Source: a virus. From it: a stretch of 24,914 nt of DNA. The translations under genes were made by a program, and so were the position numbers. Location: IMG/VR virus record IMGVR_UViG_3300032242_001038, positions 1 to 24,914 of that record; one strand, given 5' to 3'. Positions 2,615 through 22,897 of this stretch are shown in pieces (position 1 is the stretch's first letter; each line of letters begins with the position of its first letter). The notes beneath the pieces were generated by a model, which saw nothing but the letters and a program-made list of their open reading frames with translations, had not been told where the DNA came from and searched no databases.

Positions 2615-3850
2615 ATGACGACCTACACAAATCCGTTCACCGCTCAAACCATATCTCCTGCTCAAGTTGGTTATGAATATCTAACACTTTCAGCTGATAC
2701 GACTCTCCAGTGGCCTATTAACGGTAACGATACTACTAATGTAGCTGCAAACATTATTGAAGTAACTGCAGGGGTTCCTCCCTCCCCCGCAACAGCCTAC
2801 AACTTGTTGATGCCTTCGGCTTACCAAGTATCGACAGGTCAAGCAGTTATTATTCGTAACGTCGGTGCTAATACGTTTAACGTAACAAATGCTAGTGGCG
2901 CAACCATTAGTGCAGTGGCTTCTGGTGTTGCTGTTTACATTTATCTAACTGACAACACTACAGCTAACGGTACGTGGTCAACAGTTACTTTTGGAGCGGG
3001 TACATCTGCAGCTAATGCAGCTACCTTGGCTGGATACGGTTTAACAGCCATTAGCACTACCTTAAATCAATCGTATTACGTTCAGACTATTAGCTCTACC
3101 TATACCTTAACAAGCACTGCTAGAGCGCAGATGAACGTCTGGACAGGTGGTGTAGGTACGATAACTCTGCCTTCTGCCTCTACGGTAGGTGCTAATTGGT
3201 TTACGATCATTAAGAACGACGGTACAGGTATTTTGACTATATCCCCCGTTGGTTCTGACACGATTGATGGAAACGCTAATCAACAGCTTCAGTTAACAGA
3301 GTCTATTGTTTTAGTTTCTAGTGGTTCGACTTGGTACACCTTTGGTTATGGTCGTTCTAACTCATTTGCCTATACTCAATTAGCGTTGACTTTAACTGGT
3401 GGTACGTACACTGAAACCTCAGCTCAGGCTTCTAATACGATTCAGACTATCTCTGGTACGTTAACCAGCAACCAAATACTTATTATTCCTTCAACTGTTC
3501 AGCTATACAGTTTTACCAATAATACGACTGGTTCATATTCGTTAACAATTAAGACAGCTGTATCAGGTGGTGCTTCAATAACAATTGGTCAAAGTACCTC
3601 ATTGATTGTTATTTGTGATGGTACAAACGTCTATAACGCTGCTTCTGGTTCTGCCAGCTCTATTGTTTCCTTGACTTTAGGTAATGGATCAACTGCTGTT
3701 CCTTCGTTAAAGTTTACTGGTGATACAACGACAGGTCTTTACTTACCTGCTTCTGGTCAGTTGGGAATTGTTATTAGTGGCTCTCTTAATTCGTACTTTA
3801 GTAGCTCAGGATTTACCTCTTTAAATGGTATTTCTGGAGGCACGTTTTGA
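2615..3850 (+). CDS. Beta-rich fibre or appendage-like virion protein
   Basis: 411 residues, dominated by Ser, Thr, Gly, Ala and Asn with alternating beta-type hydrophobicity. No cysteine-rich or enzymatic motif was seen. Repeated units such as [21 protein letters not shown], then [15 protein letters not shown], resemble beta-helix and fibre domains. The C-terminus ([23 protein letters not shown]) matches a motif often found near the end of tail fibres of aquatic phages, just before an attachment or chaperone domain. Here the protein stops about 30 residues later, so there is no S74-type chaperone. It starts two bases after the adaptor stop and ends inside the next start (TTGA). A virion appendage or head fibre is likely, but receptor binding is a guess. 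Confidence 0.6.
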
Positions 3851-6109: not shown

Positions 6110-8713
6110 ATGGCTAATTCTCAACAACTTAAAGAAATAGTTAATGGATTAGAAAGCGATCTTGCTGACTTAAATCCGGGTAGTGATGCTGCCGAATATC
6201 AGAGAGTATCTGCAAAACTTGCTGACGCTAGAGATCAATTAGCGAATGCTAGTTCTCAGCAAACAGTTATGGGTGGAGTAACGGTCGGTAAAACACCAAC
6301 CCCTGCTCCAGAACCTGCTCCTGCCCCACAACCAGCTCCACTGCAACAAGTTGCACAAGTAGCGCCGGATTCAAATACTAGCGGCTATCAATTTCCTACT
6401 CTTAAACAATCTCTTATTGATAATCAGTTAAACAAACTTAAAACTAATTCATTAACTTCTTTTAATTCTGACATTCGTGATCAAATTTATAACGCAGGTT
6501 GGAATCAAAAATCTGATGCTGTTCAGGTATTAAATGGTGCTGCTGTTTATGGATTAGTAAAGCCAATAAATGCTGGTGTTATGGGTTCGCCCATGTACCA
6601 AAAACCTAACGGCGGGGCAGTTACTGATGCTGATTTTGTAAATGCCGCAAAAGCTGCGGGGATTGATCCTAGTTCGTACTACCACAAGCAAGCTATGGGA
6701 ATGGGTGGTACGCAAAATGTTTTAGATAAAAATGCGCTTTACAACGCAATTAATGACAAAAGCAAAGATTTATATTCAATTACTAATGCTATAGAGGGGG
6801 CTAAACGAGGTGATAAAGCCCTTCACGCAACTGCTTTGTATAAAGCAGACGGTAACGGCAATCTTGTTATTCAAAACGACCCAACAACAGGTCAACCAGA
6901 CGCTAAATATTTCAGCACCGTAAGATATGCTAGTGATCCCGGATTTTTAGCTGATTTAGGCCCACTCCTTGGAATAGCGGGTCTTGCTTTTGGTGCTCCA
7001 TTATTGGGAGAACTTTTTGCTCCTGCAGCTGCTGCAGAAAGCACTCTTGGTTTAGCGGCTGGTGCTGGTCTTGGCACTGGAACTATGGCTGGAGAGATGC
7101 TAGGTGCTGGTGTACTTGGCGCTGGCGCAGCTCCAGTTCTTGGAGAGACTGCTGCTTTAGGTGCTGGCGCTCTTAGTGCATTAGCTCCTGCAGCTACTTC
7201 AGGCGGTTTGAATTTACAGTCTTTAGCTAAACAAGCTGGACAAGGCGCAGTAAAAGGCGTTGTTCAATCAGCCCTTTCAGACATTGTTTCTGGTAAAGGT
7301 TTAAATACATCAGATTTACTTAAAGGTGCATTTTCTGGTGGTTTAGGTGGTGGCGTTGGTAATGTAGCGACTCAGTTTGGTGCAAATCCTATAGTTTCTC
7401 AAGGCTTGTCTGGGGCAACGACTGCTGGAACTAATGCTGCTTTAAACAAAGGTAATGTATTAAAGAGCGTTGAATTAGGTGGTGGTTTAGGTGCGGTAGC
7501 TGGTGGCACAAACATGCTGCTTAGTGGTAAGGATGCTAATGGAAACCCTGTATATAGTCCTGTAGAGAAGGGCGCTATTTCTGGTGCTATACAAGGTGGT
7601 GCGCAAGCTTTATTAAATAAAAAAGACCCAATTACTGGTGCGTTAGTTAATGCCGCAGGTGGTGCTGCAGGTGCAGCTGTTGGTAATGCGACGGGAAATC
7701 CTGTTGTAGATAAGTCTCTTGCTGCGTTAGCGTCTGTTGGAACTAAGATGGCTGCAACAAACATCTTAGGCCAATCCACAGGCGCACTAGGATTAAACCA
7801 AGTAAGTGCGTTAGTTCCCACGACTCAAGGGACTACTACGATAGACCCAATTACTGGTCAGCCTGTACAACAAACAACCCAAAATGGGCAGTTGATGGAT
7901 AGTCAATTAGCTGCTCTTCAGGAAGAATTAAACTTTTTAAATCGTCAGAACTATTTAAAGAATGCTAACGAATATTCTGTTTCTGACTATATTAATGCCC
8001 AAGCTGGTGTTCCTAGTGGAGAAAAAGGATACACAGGCTTTTTAACTCCCGGTGTCATGACTACTTCGGCGGCTCCTATGCAAGAAACACAACAACAACA
8101 ACCTGTTGACACTTATCAACAGATTTATTCTCAATTAGCTAATGTTGATCCTAGACTACTTAATATCTTGAATCAGCGAGTTGCCAAGAATGGTGGTGCT
8201 ATAAAAATGGCTGCAGGTGGGAGTGCTTTAGCTGCTCTTGAAGCTCATGCACAGAAGCTAAAAGATCAACAAATGCTCAGGCATTTTGAAGATGCGTCAA
8301 GACAGTTAGCTTTGCCTAACCAACATATGGGGAATGTTCCTTATGGAAACCCCTCTGGCGGTGCTTTAATGCACCCTATAAGCCCCGGATACTTTGTGAC
8401 TAGGGCTAAGGAAGGCGGTGAAATGGAACATCAACCTGAGTTCATTACAGGGGCTACAGGACACTACGTAAAAGGAAAAGGTGATGGCCAATCTGACGAT
8501 ATCCCTGCTATGTTGGCAGATGGTGAATATGTATTCGACGCAGATACTGTTGCAGCTTTGGGGAATGGATCATCTGACGCGGGAGCCAAGCTATTAGACC
8601 ACTTTAGAGAATCTTTAAGAGAGCACAAGCGTTCTGCTCCTGCAGATAAGATTCCACCTAAAGCAGCTCCGTTACAATATATGAAAGAAGCATTGAGAAG
8701 GCATAAAGGATAA
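6110..8713 (+). CDS. Large Gly/Ala-rich internal virion protein (ejection protein candidate)
   Basis: 867 residues. The N-terminus is a short coiled coil (LKEIVNGLESDLADLN). A Pro/Ala linker follows at about residues 60-85. A long Gly/Ala-rich centre at about 280-560 (for example GLGAVAGGTNMLLSG, GALVNAAGGAAGAAVGNATG) resembles glycine-zipper membrane-active regions. The last 100 residues are charged and contain GKGDGQSDDIPAMLADGEYVF and SPADK/PPKAAP-type linkers. Size, composition and position after the nozzle gene fit the internal proteins that podoviruses eject to form a DNA conduit across the envelope. No lytic transglycosylase motif was seen. The function is inferred, and the conserved GDGQSDDIPAML tail is the best handle for a database search. 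Confidence 0.6.
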   Translation: MANSQQLKEIVNGLESDLADLNPGSDAAEYQRVSAKLADARDQLANASSQQTVMGGVTVGKTPTPAPEPAPAPQPAPLQQVAQVAPDSNTSGYQFPTLKQSLIDNQLNKLKTNSLTSFNSDIRDQIYNAGWNQKSDAVQVLNGAAVYGLVKPINAGVMGSPMYQKPNGGAVTDADFVNAAKAAGIDPSSYYHKQAMGMGGTQNVLDKNALYNAINDKSKDLYSITNAIEGAKRGDKALHATALYKADGNGNLVIQNDPTTGQPDAKYFSTVRYASDPGFLADLGPLLGIAGLAFGAPLLGELFAPAAAAESTLGLAAGAGLGTGTMAGEMLGAGVLGAGAAPVLGETAALGAGALSALAPAATSGGLNLQSLAKQAGQGAVKGVVQSALSDIVSGKGLNTSDLLKGAFSGGLGGGVGNVATQFGANPIVSQGLSGATTAGTNAALNKGNVLKSVELGGGLGAVAGGTNMLLSGKDANGNPVYSPVEKGAISGAIQGGAQALLNKKDPITGALVNAAGGAAGAAVGNATGNPVVDKSLAALASVGTKMAATNILGQSTGALGLNQVSALVPTTQGTTTIDPITGQPVQQTTQNGQLMDSQLAALQEELNFLNRQNYLKNANEYSVSDYINAQAGVPSGEKGYTGFLTPGVMTTSAAPMQETQQQQPVDTYQQIYSQLANVDPRLLNILNQRVAKNGGAIKMAAGGSALAALEAHAQKLKDQQMLRHFEDASRQLALPNQHMGNVPYGNPSGGALMHPISPGYFVTRAKEGGEMEHQPEFITGATGHYVKGKGDGQSDDIPAMLADGEYVFDADTVAALGNGSSDAGAKLLDHFRESLREHKRSAPADKIPPKAAPLQYMKEALRRHKG

Positions 8714-20745: not shown

Positions 20746-21035
20746 ACAACAAACTCACAGCTGCTGAGCGTAAGCATTTGGCTAGGGTCAAGAGCTTGCC
20801 TTGCAGCGTCTGCAATGCCCCTCCCCCAAGCTCAGCCCATCATGTTAAGCAGCACCAGCAATATACGGCTGTAGCTCTATGCTATGACTGCCACCAAGGG
20901 TCTATGATGGGTTGGCACGGCAACCGTAGGGCATGGGCTATTCGTAAGATGGATGAACTTGACGCTTTGAATGTCACTATTCAACGATTATTGACTGATG
21001 GCTTGATAGCAGAGGACAAAGAAAATTCATTTTAA
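20742..21035 (+). CDS. Ref-like HNH nuclease
   Basis: 97 residues from a TTG in a TTGA overlap. The zinc/HNH pattern is C21 and C24 (PCSVC), H33-H34 (SAHHV), C47, C50 and H51 (CYDCHQG), and H59 (GWHG). It resembles the RecA-dependent nuclease Ref (P1) and related HNH proteins of about this size. The gene order after the recombination and resolvase genes fits a role in DNA breakage or processing. RecA dependence is family knowledge, not seen here. No ATG is available before the conserved region, so TTG is likely. Confidence 0.7.
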   Translation: MNNKLTAAERKHLARVKSLPCSVCNAPPPSSAHHVKQHQQYTAVALCYDCHQGSMMGWHGNRRAWAIRKMDELDALNVTIQRLLTDGLIAEDKENSF

Positions 21036-21104
21036 ATCATGCGTTTAACACAGATTTCATAATTGCATGTTAGGTTTTAGCTAATTTCACTCACTAGAAT
21101 CAAA

Positions 21105-22067
21105 ATGTCTAAAATGAAAATTAGCGATGATGAATTTGTTGCTTTATGGCGCAAACTAGGAAGTGCTTCTGAAGTATCAAAAATTACTGGGATTGGTGTT
21201 CGTTCCGTACATTCTAGGCGAAGAACACTTGAAATGAAGCTTGGTGAAAAACTTATAGCAGTTGCTACGCAAAGCCCAGACTTCCAGATAACTATTCCTG
21301 AGAATGGTGTTAGAACAAAAGTAGATTTAAAAGACGGTGTAATTTTAGTTGCAAGTGATTGTCATTATTGGCCGGGAGTTATATCAACAGGGCATAAATC
21401 TTTCGTCAAATTAATTAAAGACATTAAGCCAAAAATAGTCGTACTCAATGGTGATGTATTTGACGGCGCTGCAATTAGCAGATTCCCTGCGGGCGATTGG
21501 CAAACACTACCAAGCGTAAAACAAGAATTAGAAGCTTGCCAAGAACGAATAAATGAAATTGAAGAAGTAGCTGGCAATGCTAAATTGCTATGGGCATGGG
21601 GGAACCATGACCTCCGCTTTAATTCCAAACTCGCTCAGCAAGTCGGTGACGGTTTCAAAGGTCTTCAAGGTTTTAATCTCAAAGATTACTTCCCTCGTTG
21701 GAAATTCCAAACATCAATTATGGTCAATGGTAGCTTAATGATTAAGCATCGTTGGCATAATGGAATACACGCTGTTTACAATAATATAACAAAATCAGGT
21801 GTTAGCTTTTGTACAGGACACCTTCATTCCCTAAAAGTTACACCTTTCTCAGATTACCATGGCGCTCGATATGGCATCGATTGCGGGACATTAGCGCCTA
21901 TTTATGATGAAGGGTTTAGCTATATGGAAGATTCTCCCCGCAACTGGCGCAGTGGCGGCGCTGTACTCACGTTTTACGATAATAAGTTAATGCCACCTGA
22001 GCTTTTTGAGGTAATCGATGAGGATGGTGGTATGACGTATTTTAGAGGTGAAGTTTTTAAGGTTTAA
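21105..22067 (+). CDS. Calcineurin-type metallophosphoesterase with N-terminal HTH-like region
   Basis: 320 residues. Metal ligands of the family are D85 and H87 (SDCHYW), D117 (NGDVFDG), N167 and H168 (GNHD), H215 to H218 (KHRWHNG) and H239/H241 (GHLH). Residues of about 8-40 (DEFVALWRKLGSASEVSKITGIGVRSVHSRRR) look like a helix-turn-helix, as in many phage members. Substrates could be DNA ends (Mre11/SbcD-like) or phosphoester metabolites. The gene is AT-richer than the preceding block. The 69-base spacer before it has no clear promoter or strong ribosome site. A phage-encoded phosphoesterase is a frequent accessory. Confidence 0.85.
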   Translation: MSKMKISDDEFVALWRKLGSASEVSKITGIGVRSVHSRRRTLEMKLGEKLIAVATQSPDFQITIPENGVRTKVDLKDGVILVASDCHYWPGVISTGHKSFVKLIKDIKPKIVVLNGDVFDGAAISRFPAGDWQTLPSVKQELEACQERINEIEEVAGNAKLLWAWGNHDLRFNSKLAQQVGDGFKGLQGFNLKDYFPRWKFQTSIMVNGSLMIKHRWHNGIHAVYNNITKSGVSFCTGHLHSLKVTPFSDYHGARYGIDCGTLAPIYDEGFSYMEDSPRNWRSGGAVLTFYDNKLMPPELFEVIDEDGGMTYFRGEVFKV

Positions 22068-22144: not shown

Positions 22145-22348
22145 ATGGACAATTTTATACAAAAACAAATCGAACTATCGGAGCGTTTATACAAAATAAT
22201 GCTTGCCGACCATAAGTCACGGTTTGAAAAAATTGCAGAAGCTTACGCCTTAAGTGAAAATCTGCAAAAAAAACTAAAAGAACGTGACGATGAAATACAA
22301 AAACTAAAACGTAAATTGCTCACTTATGAGTCATTAGAGCGTATGTGA
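22145..22348 (+). CDS. Small coiled-coil protein
   Basis: 67 residues. AGGTAGG precedes the ATG. The whole sequence is a charged amphipathic helix (QKQIELSERLYKIMLADHKSRF, then LSENLQKKLKERDDEIQKLKRKLL). It has the size and shape of dimeric adaptors or small phage regulators of host machines. No DNA-binding or enzymatic motif is seen. It stands alone between a palindrome-containing spacer and a separate leader for the acidic gene. Confidence 0.65.
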   Translation: MDNFIQKQIELSERLYKIMLADHKSRFEKIAEAYALSENLQKKLKERDDEIQKLKRKLLTYESLERM

Positions 22349-22411
22349 CCTGTTTATAGCTCAAATTTGTACGTTTTTGATTTGTCATATTTGGCGTGTA
22401 GGATAATTTTT

Positions 22412-22429
22412 GCAACCAGCGGAGGTTGC
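22412..22429 (+). promoter_or_regulatory. Leader hairpin before the acidic gene
   Basis: GCAACC (22412-22417) and GGTTGC (22424-22429) make a perfect 6-bp stem with an AGCGGA loop, 22 bases before the ATG at 22452. It contains GGAGG in the loop and 3' arm, a strong decoy Shine-Dalgarno. GATAAT lies just upstream (about 22402-22407), but no correctly spaced -35 box was found, so a promoter is not claimed. The hairpin could stabilise the mRNA 5' end. Confidence 0.4.
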
Positions 22430-22451
22430 TAATTTGACCACGGAGCTTATC

Positions 22452-22694
22452 ATGAATATAACATTCACTATTACTGGCAGCCTTGATGAATTGTTTGATT
22501 TGTTAGACCTTGAAGTTATTGATGCAGAAGAAATTGAGTACGACGATGATGTAGAGTTTGATGATCAAGATGGTATTGAGTACGACGAAGACGGTGTAGC
22601 TTGGTGGTACGACGAAGAGACTGATGTGTACTACTACTTTGATGAAGAAGCTGATGACTGGGTAGAGTACGACGAAGACGTAGCATCTTGGTAA
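22452..22694 (+). CDS. Extremely acidic protein, DNA-mimic candidate
   Basis: 80 residues from the ATG at 22452, with GGAG seven bases upstream (a longer form from 22410 would start in the leader hairpin). I count 19 Asp and 14 Glu, with no Lys, Arg or His. The rest is rich in Tyr and Trp. An N-terminal beta-like segment (NITFTITGSLDELFDLLDLEV) precedes a repetitive acidic region with EYDDD, EYDEDGVAWWYDEE and EYDEDVASW repeats. Net charge and size recall DNA-mimic inhibitors (Ocr, some anti-CRISPR and anti-restriction proteins), but no homology was recognised. A strong terminator follows, so it forms its own short transcription unit. Confidence 0.75.
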   Translation: MNITFTITGSLDELFDLLDLEVIDAEEIEYDDDVEFDDQDGIEYDEDGVAWWYDEETDVYYYFDEEADDWVEYDEDVASW

Positions 22695-22701
22695 TACAAA
22701 G

Positions 22702-22737
22702 GGCTGGTATATATTCCGGTATATATCAGCCTTTTTT
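22702..22737 (+). terminator. Strong Rho-independent terminator
   Basis: GGCTGGTATATAT (from 22702) pairs with GTATATATCAGCC (ending 22731) through a 12- to 13-bp stem with two G-U pairs and a TCCG loop. TTTTTT follows at 22732-22737. It lies seven bases after the acidic gene stop. The A/T alternating stem also reads well on the opposite strand, but there the flank AAAGG has no T-run, so it is directional. Confidence 0.85.
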
Positions 22738-22897
22738 CAGTTATAAAAATGCCATCAATAGATATTACCTATCTTTATTGTAAATCCCATAAAAAAATAT
22801 ATTTAAATAAATTGTGTTTAAGGTCTTGTATACCGTTTAATTCCTAGTTAAAGTGTAGTCACTGCGATGTGCAGGACAAGCGAAACAGGAGCGAAAC
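22738..22897. promoter_or_regulatory. AT-rich intergenic promoter region
   Basis: A 160-base non-coding spacer between a terminator and the accessory operon. It includes an inverted repeat AGATA-TTACC-TATCT (22760-22774), a long A/T stretch, and possible sigma70 elements (TTGTGT with TTTAAT 18 bases away). The -35 box matches poorly. A transcription start is expected here because the terminator isolates the downstream genes. AGGAG before the next ATG is clear. No ORF or tRNA is seen. Confidence 0.4.

Follow-up and report, generated by a model that had tools for sequence, protein, structure and literature searches.

The gene at positions 22452-22694 (plus strand) of the window, a 24.9-kb virus record from IMG/VR (24,914 nucleotides) with genes for phage lysis, replication and presumed structural proteins, encodes an ultra-acidic protein of 80 amino acids with one Trp/Tyr/Asp module. 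The protein belongs to a real family, not described before, of very small phage proteins with an extreme negative charge, and the family is carried on a moron-like mobile phage cassette that has passed as a block from one phage type to another. This uncharacterised family and its cassette are what is new here, while the mechanism that we prefer, a polyanionic decoy, is hypothetical and offered tentatively. A preliminary description of this DNA had observed the acidity of the protein and read it as a candidate DNA mimic; the observation is confirmed and the interpretation is supported in part, in that the gene is real, falls into no known family, has an acidity that appears to be selected and possesses a private leader and terminator.

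Translation of the gene gives 19 Asp and 14 Glu and no Lys, Arg or His, in agreement with the 33 acidic and no basic residues originally counted, and the product has a net charge of -33 and a pI of about 4.05. The richness in Tyr and Trp that had been pointed out is borne out by a content of 19% Phe, Trp and Tyr. Similarly, the DNA repeat GAGTACGACGA does occur at 22536, 22578 and 22665, with the first copy encoding EYDD and the other two EYDE, and the suggestion of repeat expansion is right at the level of the family, because some relatives, L030 and L006 among them, carry the module in tandem duplicate.

Relatives were collected from IMG/VR, where a first scan found 27 and a profile scan 66 loci, to which extra loci were added, and these amount to 59 distinct proteins including that of the window, i.e., at least 58 further relatives. 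When the profile was run against 12 source records the gene was present in all 12, at a single place in each. Across all 59 distinct members the share of Asp and Glu is 38-53%, basic residues number 0-5 (none at all in 30 members) and net charge per residue is -0.35 to -0.53, while only one of 920 comparison ORFs on the same contigs falls below -0.3; thus, the acidic ORF is not a compositional accident. That sole exception appears, by its length and position, to be a second family copy in L035, a 4-kb contig with two acidic cassettes on opposite strands (830-1241, plus; about 3480-3789, minus), which could be real or an assembly artefact. Close family pairs have dN/dS values of 0.04-0.20 (NG86), and the family, including its extreme acidity, is by sequence comparison under purifying selection. 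A chance or low-complexity ORF is ruled out by the homologues, by these dN/dS values and by the leader described below. One relative, L104 (minus strand, about 6300-6700 of the reverse complement), has the same leader and a convergent HNH gene and lacks the W/Y module; its shorter ORF keeps only the N-terminal segment and acidic tail, and resembles the N-terminal part of L084.

Searches of Pfam, PHROGs, NCBIfam and PADLOC gave no credible family for any of the 59 members, the window protein itself having no Pfam or PADLOC match, and in the PDB there was no sequence match at E<=10 and no significant fold match. The earlier statement that no known family could be recognised has therefore held up, and no homology was found to the DNA-mimic, anti-CRISPR or defence-linked families represented in Pfam, PADLOC and the PDB. 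Matches to US22, DUF and Imm61 in single or few members (E 1e-4 to 1e-2; for US22 five members, best 8.5e-05) were judged compositional, those to US22 tentatively. The protein is absent from 84,980 prokaryote genomes, and tblastn against GenBank phages gave no match, a negative result that is weakened because the low-complexity filter of BLAST may mask acidic proteins. The best structural matches found, in BFVD, are weak (28-44% identity) and are to A0A6J7WIK2, A0A6J5NEZ6 and A0A6J7WGB1, three unannotated and uncharacterised proteins of 'uncultured Caudovirales phage' that are very likely members of the family.

Members of the family contain one or two copies of a Trp/Tyr/Asp module of about 28 residues, with the conserved core EYDEDGVAWWYDEE-x-x-YYYFDEDxDDWxE, preceded by a short variable N-terminal segment and often followed by an acidic C-terminal tail. 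There is one core in the window protein and there are two in tandem in L030, L006 and L033. In the window the conserved module spans residues 42-73 (the EYDEDGVAWWYDEETDVYYYFDEEADDWVEYD region, 22575-22670, plus strand), for which AlphaFold2 predicts a four-stranded β-meander (strands 42-44, 50-54, 59-64 and 69-73; pLDDT 85-90), the only helix being at residues 11-17. Structure prediction had been proposed as a check on the original reading, and the resulting model is only moderately confident (pTM 0.42 with either 22 or 59 aligned sequences), the middle and N-terminal half being uncertain. Specifically, W51, D54, W70 and G48 are invariant in A1 and near-invariant in A3. The invariant W/Y/G/D module is something more than charge, and its aromatic pattern points to a specific surface for binding or to a structural role.

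The gene had also been described as having its own leader and terminator, and the evidence for the leader is stronger than was described. About 75 nt 5' of the ATG are conserved, and incorporate, in order; 1) TTGTMAYAWTY; 2) after 6 nt, TAnnAT, which is invariant in anchored leaders; 3) a 6-bp hairpin; 4) a T-rich spacer; and, 5) GGAG. In the window, all on the plus strand, these correspond to a promoter-like element at 22382-22404 (TTGTCATATTT at 22382-22392, 6 nt, and TAGGAT at 22399-22404), a hairpin at 22412-22429 (GCAACC at 22412-22417, AGCGGA, and GGTTGC at 22424-22429) and a ribosome-binding site, GGAG, at 22442-22445, 6 nt before the ATG. An intrinsic terminator with a long stem and T6 lies at 22698-22738 (plus strand; -20.5 kcal/mol, z = -6.4), and a simple scan found a terminator in 52 of the 59 distinct members. 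Over 42 leaders 96% of cells in the hairpin are paired, with compensatory changes on both sides at four of the six pairs. The covariation of the counted two-helix structure exceeds that of all 500 shuffles and of all slid versions, although the leader sequences are related and the shuffles are thus not a formal probability. The second helix, which would close the leader over the ribosome-binding site, is only 74% paired and would include the -10, and it is not claimed.

A covariance model run over 0.59 Mb recovered the leader of the acidic gene at almost all loci and, besides these, a single match at E of about 1, with an extra match in L035 being the leader of its second acidic gene. Moreover, a strict leader pattern identified 26 stretches in all of IMG/VR, 26 of 26 lying before an acidic-family or related acidic ORF (24 full family ORFs, the start of a family ORF that is truncated by the end of the contig in L103, and the shorter acidic ORF of L104), and was absent from the 84,980 prokaryote genomes. 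The core element is at chance level outside acidic leaders on the same contigs (8 seen vs 3-8 expected); it is therefore specific to them, and its reading as a general phage promoter was rejected. In the leaders of a few divergent members (e.g., L026 and L077) a clear element or hairpin was not seen. The element is a putative promoter with a predicted transcript start, and, as an alternative, the hairpin and the T-rich sequence behind it may form a weak attenuator. A conserved promoter-like GTTTAACACAGATTTCATAATTGCATGTTAGGTT that loosely resembles the element of the acidic gene, and is without a hairpin, lies 5' of the metallophosphoesterase gene in the window (21030-21104) and in L031, L032, L054 and L066.

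The mobile unit consists of a gene for a 67-amino acid coiled-coil-like protein (22145-22348, plus strand), the leader and the acidic gene, sometimes with a convergent HNH nuclease gene. The 67-amino acid gene is directly upstream of the acidic gene in 28 of the 59 distinct members. Its product is found in the window and 36 distinct relatives, at 38 of 70 loci and in 8 of 12 whole records, usually encoded upstream of the acidic gene and sometimes elsewhere on the same contig, and database searches gave it no confident match. At least three genomic slots are occupied: 34 distinct members lie just 3' of a Mu gpT/HK97-like capsid gene (MCP), in phages with their own GroES; eight, including that of the window, follow a metallophosphoesterase gene (phrog_221; 21105-22067, plus strand, in the window), which marks this slot and is outside the cassette; and 17 are in other or truncated contexts. 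In L057 (2151-2552) and relatives, the GroES gene of these capsid-slot phages (Cpn10, E 1.6e-7) is a few genes upstream of the capsid gene. The capsid-slot phages are related to Pelagibacter phage HTVC027P, phage DSL-LC04 and Roseobacter phage CRP-901, and in these and other sequenced relatives the acidic gene is absent from the capsid-to-cement slot, which is empty or holds other genes.

Evidence for movement comes from DNA comparisons between slots. L066, in the metallophosphoesterase slot, has 81-83% DNA identity over about 550 bp with L033, L068 and L070, in the capsid slot, and this match begins at the 67-amino acid gene and ends in the acidic gene, the flanks being unmatched except for a separate 263-bp stretch shared with L068. 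Likewise, L081, in which a DNA polymerase gene precedes the cassette, shares with L065 and L074 a match of ~930 bp that comprises the 67-amino acid gene, leader, acidic gene and HNH gene. As the matches are confined to the cassette, it moves as a block. Like phage morons, which are independently transcribed accessory genes, the cassette has, by sequence and conservation, its own promoter-like element and terminator, uses variable slots at several sites, occupies a given slot in some phages but not in their relatives and is transferred as a unit. Unlike in morons, the promoter and 5' hairpin are inseparable from the gene in the different phage types, and the leader sequence is otherwise unrecorded. 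Such behaviour fits an accessory host-interaction gene.

One possibility is that the acidic protein is a stoichiometric polyanionic decoy, DNA- or RNA-mimic-like, for a basic protein. We regard this as the best explanation, although a tentative one, because the protein is accessory, apparently transcribed separately, horizontally moving and ultra-acidic. Host RNA polymerase would transcribe the gene separately from the surrounding phage genes, and the 5' hairpin may protect or tune its short mRNA. The product would fold as a β-meander of one or two modules behind the variable N-terminal segment and would occupy, stoichiometrically, the basic surface of a host protein. The target would most likely be a nucleic-acid-binding defence, nuclease or transcription protein, as for T7 Ocr, a small acidic phage protein acting by DNA mimicry (PMC7261183), T7 gp5.9, a small acidic RecBCD inhibitor and DNA/charge mimic (PMC9836394), and SPO1 Gp44, a host-takeover protein with acidic repeats whose flexible acidic DNA-mimic domain inhibits RNA polymerase (PMC8208478).

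DNA mimics are small and strongly acidic, as is the window protein (net -33 in 80 residues), and its charge per residue of -0.41, compared with -0.24 for Ocr and -0.15 for gp5.9, is consistent with a polyanion or DNA-mimic decoy. Like Ocr (gene 0.3, anti-restriction), it is small, very acidic and accessory to replication, with the same pI of about 4.05. However, Ocr has 6 Lys/Arg and 4 His, is a helical dimer and has no sequence or fold similarity to the W/Y-rich predicted β-meander. The very small, acidic gp5.9 is a parallel coiled coil, again with no similarity, and Gp44, also a phage protein with acidic repeats, additionally has a DNA-binding domain, none being detectable in the acidic family. 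No sequence or fold link to any known DNA mimic or anti-CRISPR was found in the PDB, Pfam or PADLOC, and acidity alone does not prove mimicry. The decoy reading also has against it the pTM of only 0.42, a module with features other than charge, and L104, which keeps the leader without the module. The DNA-mimic claim of the preliminary description fits a charge per residue above that of Ocr and gp5.9 and the mobility of the cassette, and it is a fair hypothesis that is not established. It is doubtful, but conceivable, that there is a new and widespread class of phage counter-defence proteins, DNA mimics built from tandem Trp/Tyr/Asp β-meander modules, which travel between unrelated phages on a cassette with its inseparable promoter and 5' hairpin and are often dispersed by a neighbouring HNH endonuclease of the homing type.

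Because many of the anti-defence proteins known from phages evolve fast and are small and acidic, they escape searches by homology alone. The acidic family has a regulatory signature besides its sequence, so that a search with nothing but the leader can bring up further members, even ones as divergent as L104. If the protein is a decoy, the 58 or more natural variants are a ready panel for target mapping, and a protein without a single basic residue would test polyanion mimicry at its extreme. Since promoter, hairpin and gene stay tightly linked in different phage types, one may also ask which host polymerase or factor recognises the leader.

The main rival to the decoy is a peptide-binding adaptor, in which the W/Y/D/G meander would serve as an OCRE/WW-like aromatic module and bind a peptide, perhaps basic or proline-rich, from a protein of the host or of the phage, with acidity merely tuning affinity and solubility. 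The near-complete conservation of W51, D54, W70 and G48 and the tandem duplication of the module are consistent with this, as is the resemblance to OCRE and WW domains, which are also short aromatic meanders with spaced Trp/Tyr. Two members have Pfam OCRE (PF17780) matches at E 0.045-0.084, but these score 13.3 and 14.2 bits against a gathering cut-off of 24.7, every such match is sub-threshold and there is no PDB fold match. Moreover, the extreme acidity of the family, which extends to the N- and C-terminal regions, sets it apart from OCRE and WW domains, and these are described mainly from eukaryotes. We consider an adaptor, with acidity in a tuning role, to be unlikely.

That the acidic protein is an antidote or immunity protein for the adjoining convergent HNH endonuclease is improbable. 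In 31 of the 59 distinct members the acidic gene borders at its 3' end on the HNH gene, whose product is basic (median net charge +15); the two genes share a terminator and they are co-mobile in L081, L065 and L074. However, many acidic genes, that of the window included, have no adjacent HNH gene, and among the 80 nearest relatives of the HNH gene 55 are not accompanied by an acidic ORF within 2.5 kb, so that the obligate linkage of nuclease and inhibitor seen in toxin-immunity pairs is lacking and obligate immunity is disfavoured. By the same observations, the HNH gene is more probably a homing-type driver or a hitch-hiker than the toxin of a toxin-antidote pair; its product looks like a free-standing homing-type nuclease and may drive the spread of the cassette. 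In L033, L053, L043 and others the HNH C-terminus (KKKGAEAP) is encoded through the shared bidirectional terminator GGGGCTTCGGCCCC.

A capsid-associated role, whether in decoration, as a scaffold-like protein or as a packaged one, is suggested by the 34 of 59 members that follow the HK97/Mu gpT-like capsid gene, but is disfavoured and seems quite improbable, given the gene's own promoter-like element and terminator, its non-structural slots in other phages and its absence from the capsid-to-cement slot of HTVC027P, DSL-LC04, CRP-901 and others; unlike genes for decoration or cement proteins, it has no constant place among the structural genes. Finally, phosphate-starvation control, with the leader as a PhoB (pho box) promoter and the polyanion serving cells or phage under phosphate limitation, is very improbable and retained as no more than a lead: host PhoB does control cyanophage genes (PMC10976474), and the proximal 11-bp half-site TTGTMATAWTC, 6 nt before TAnnAT, has the spacing of E. 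coli K-12 pstS, phoA, phoB, phoE and ugpB, but the distal (upstream) half-site fits far less well, the two-half-site score being -0.6 in the window and at most 10 in relatives vs 19-27 at the five sites of E. coli used for training.

Elsewhere in the window, the ORF layout at 867-1355 and 1075-1344, in different frames, is that of a nested Rz/Rz1-like spanin pair.
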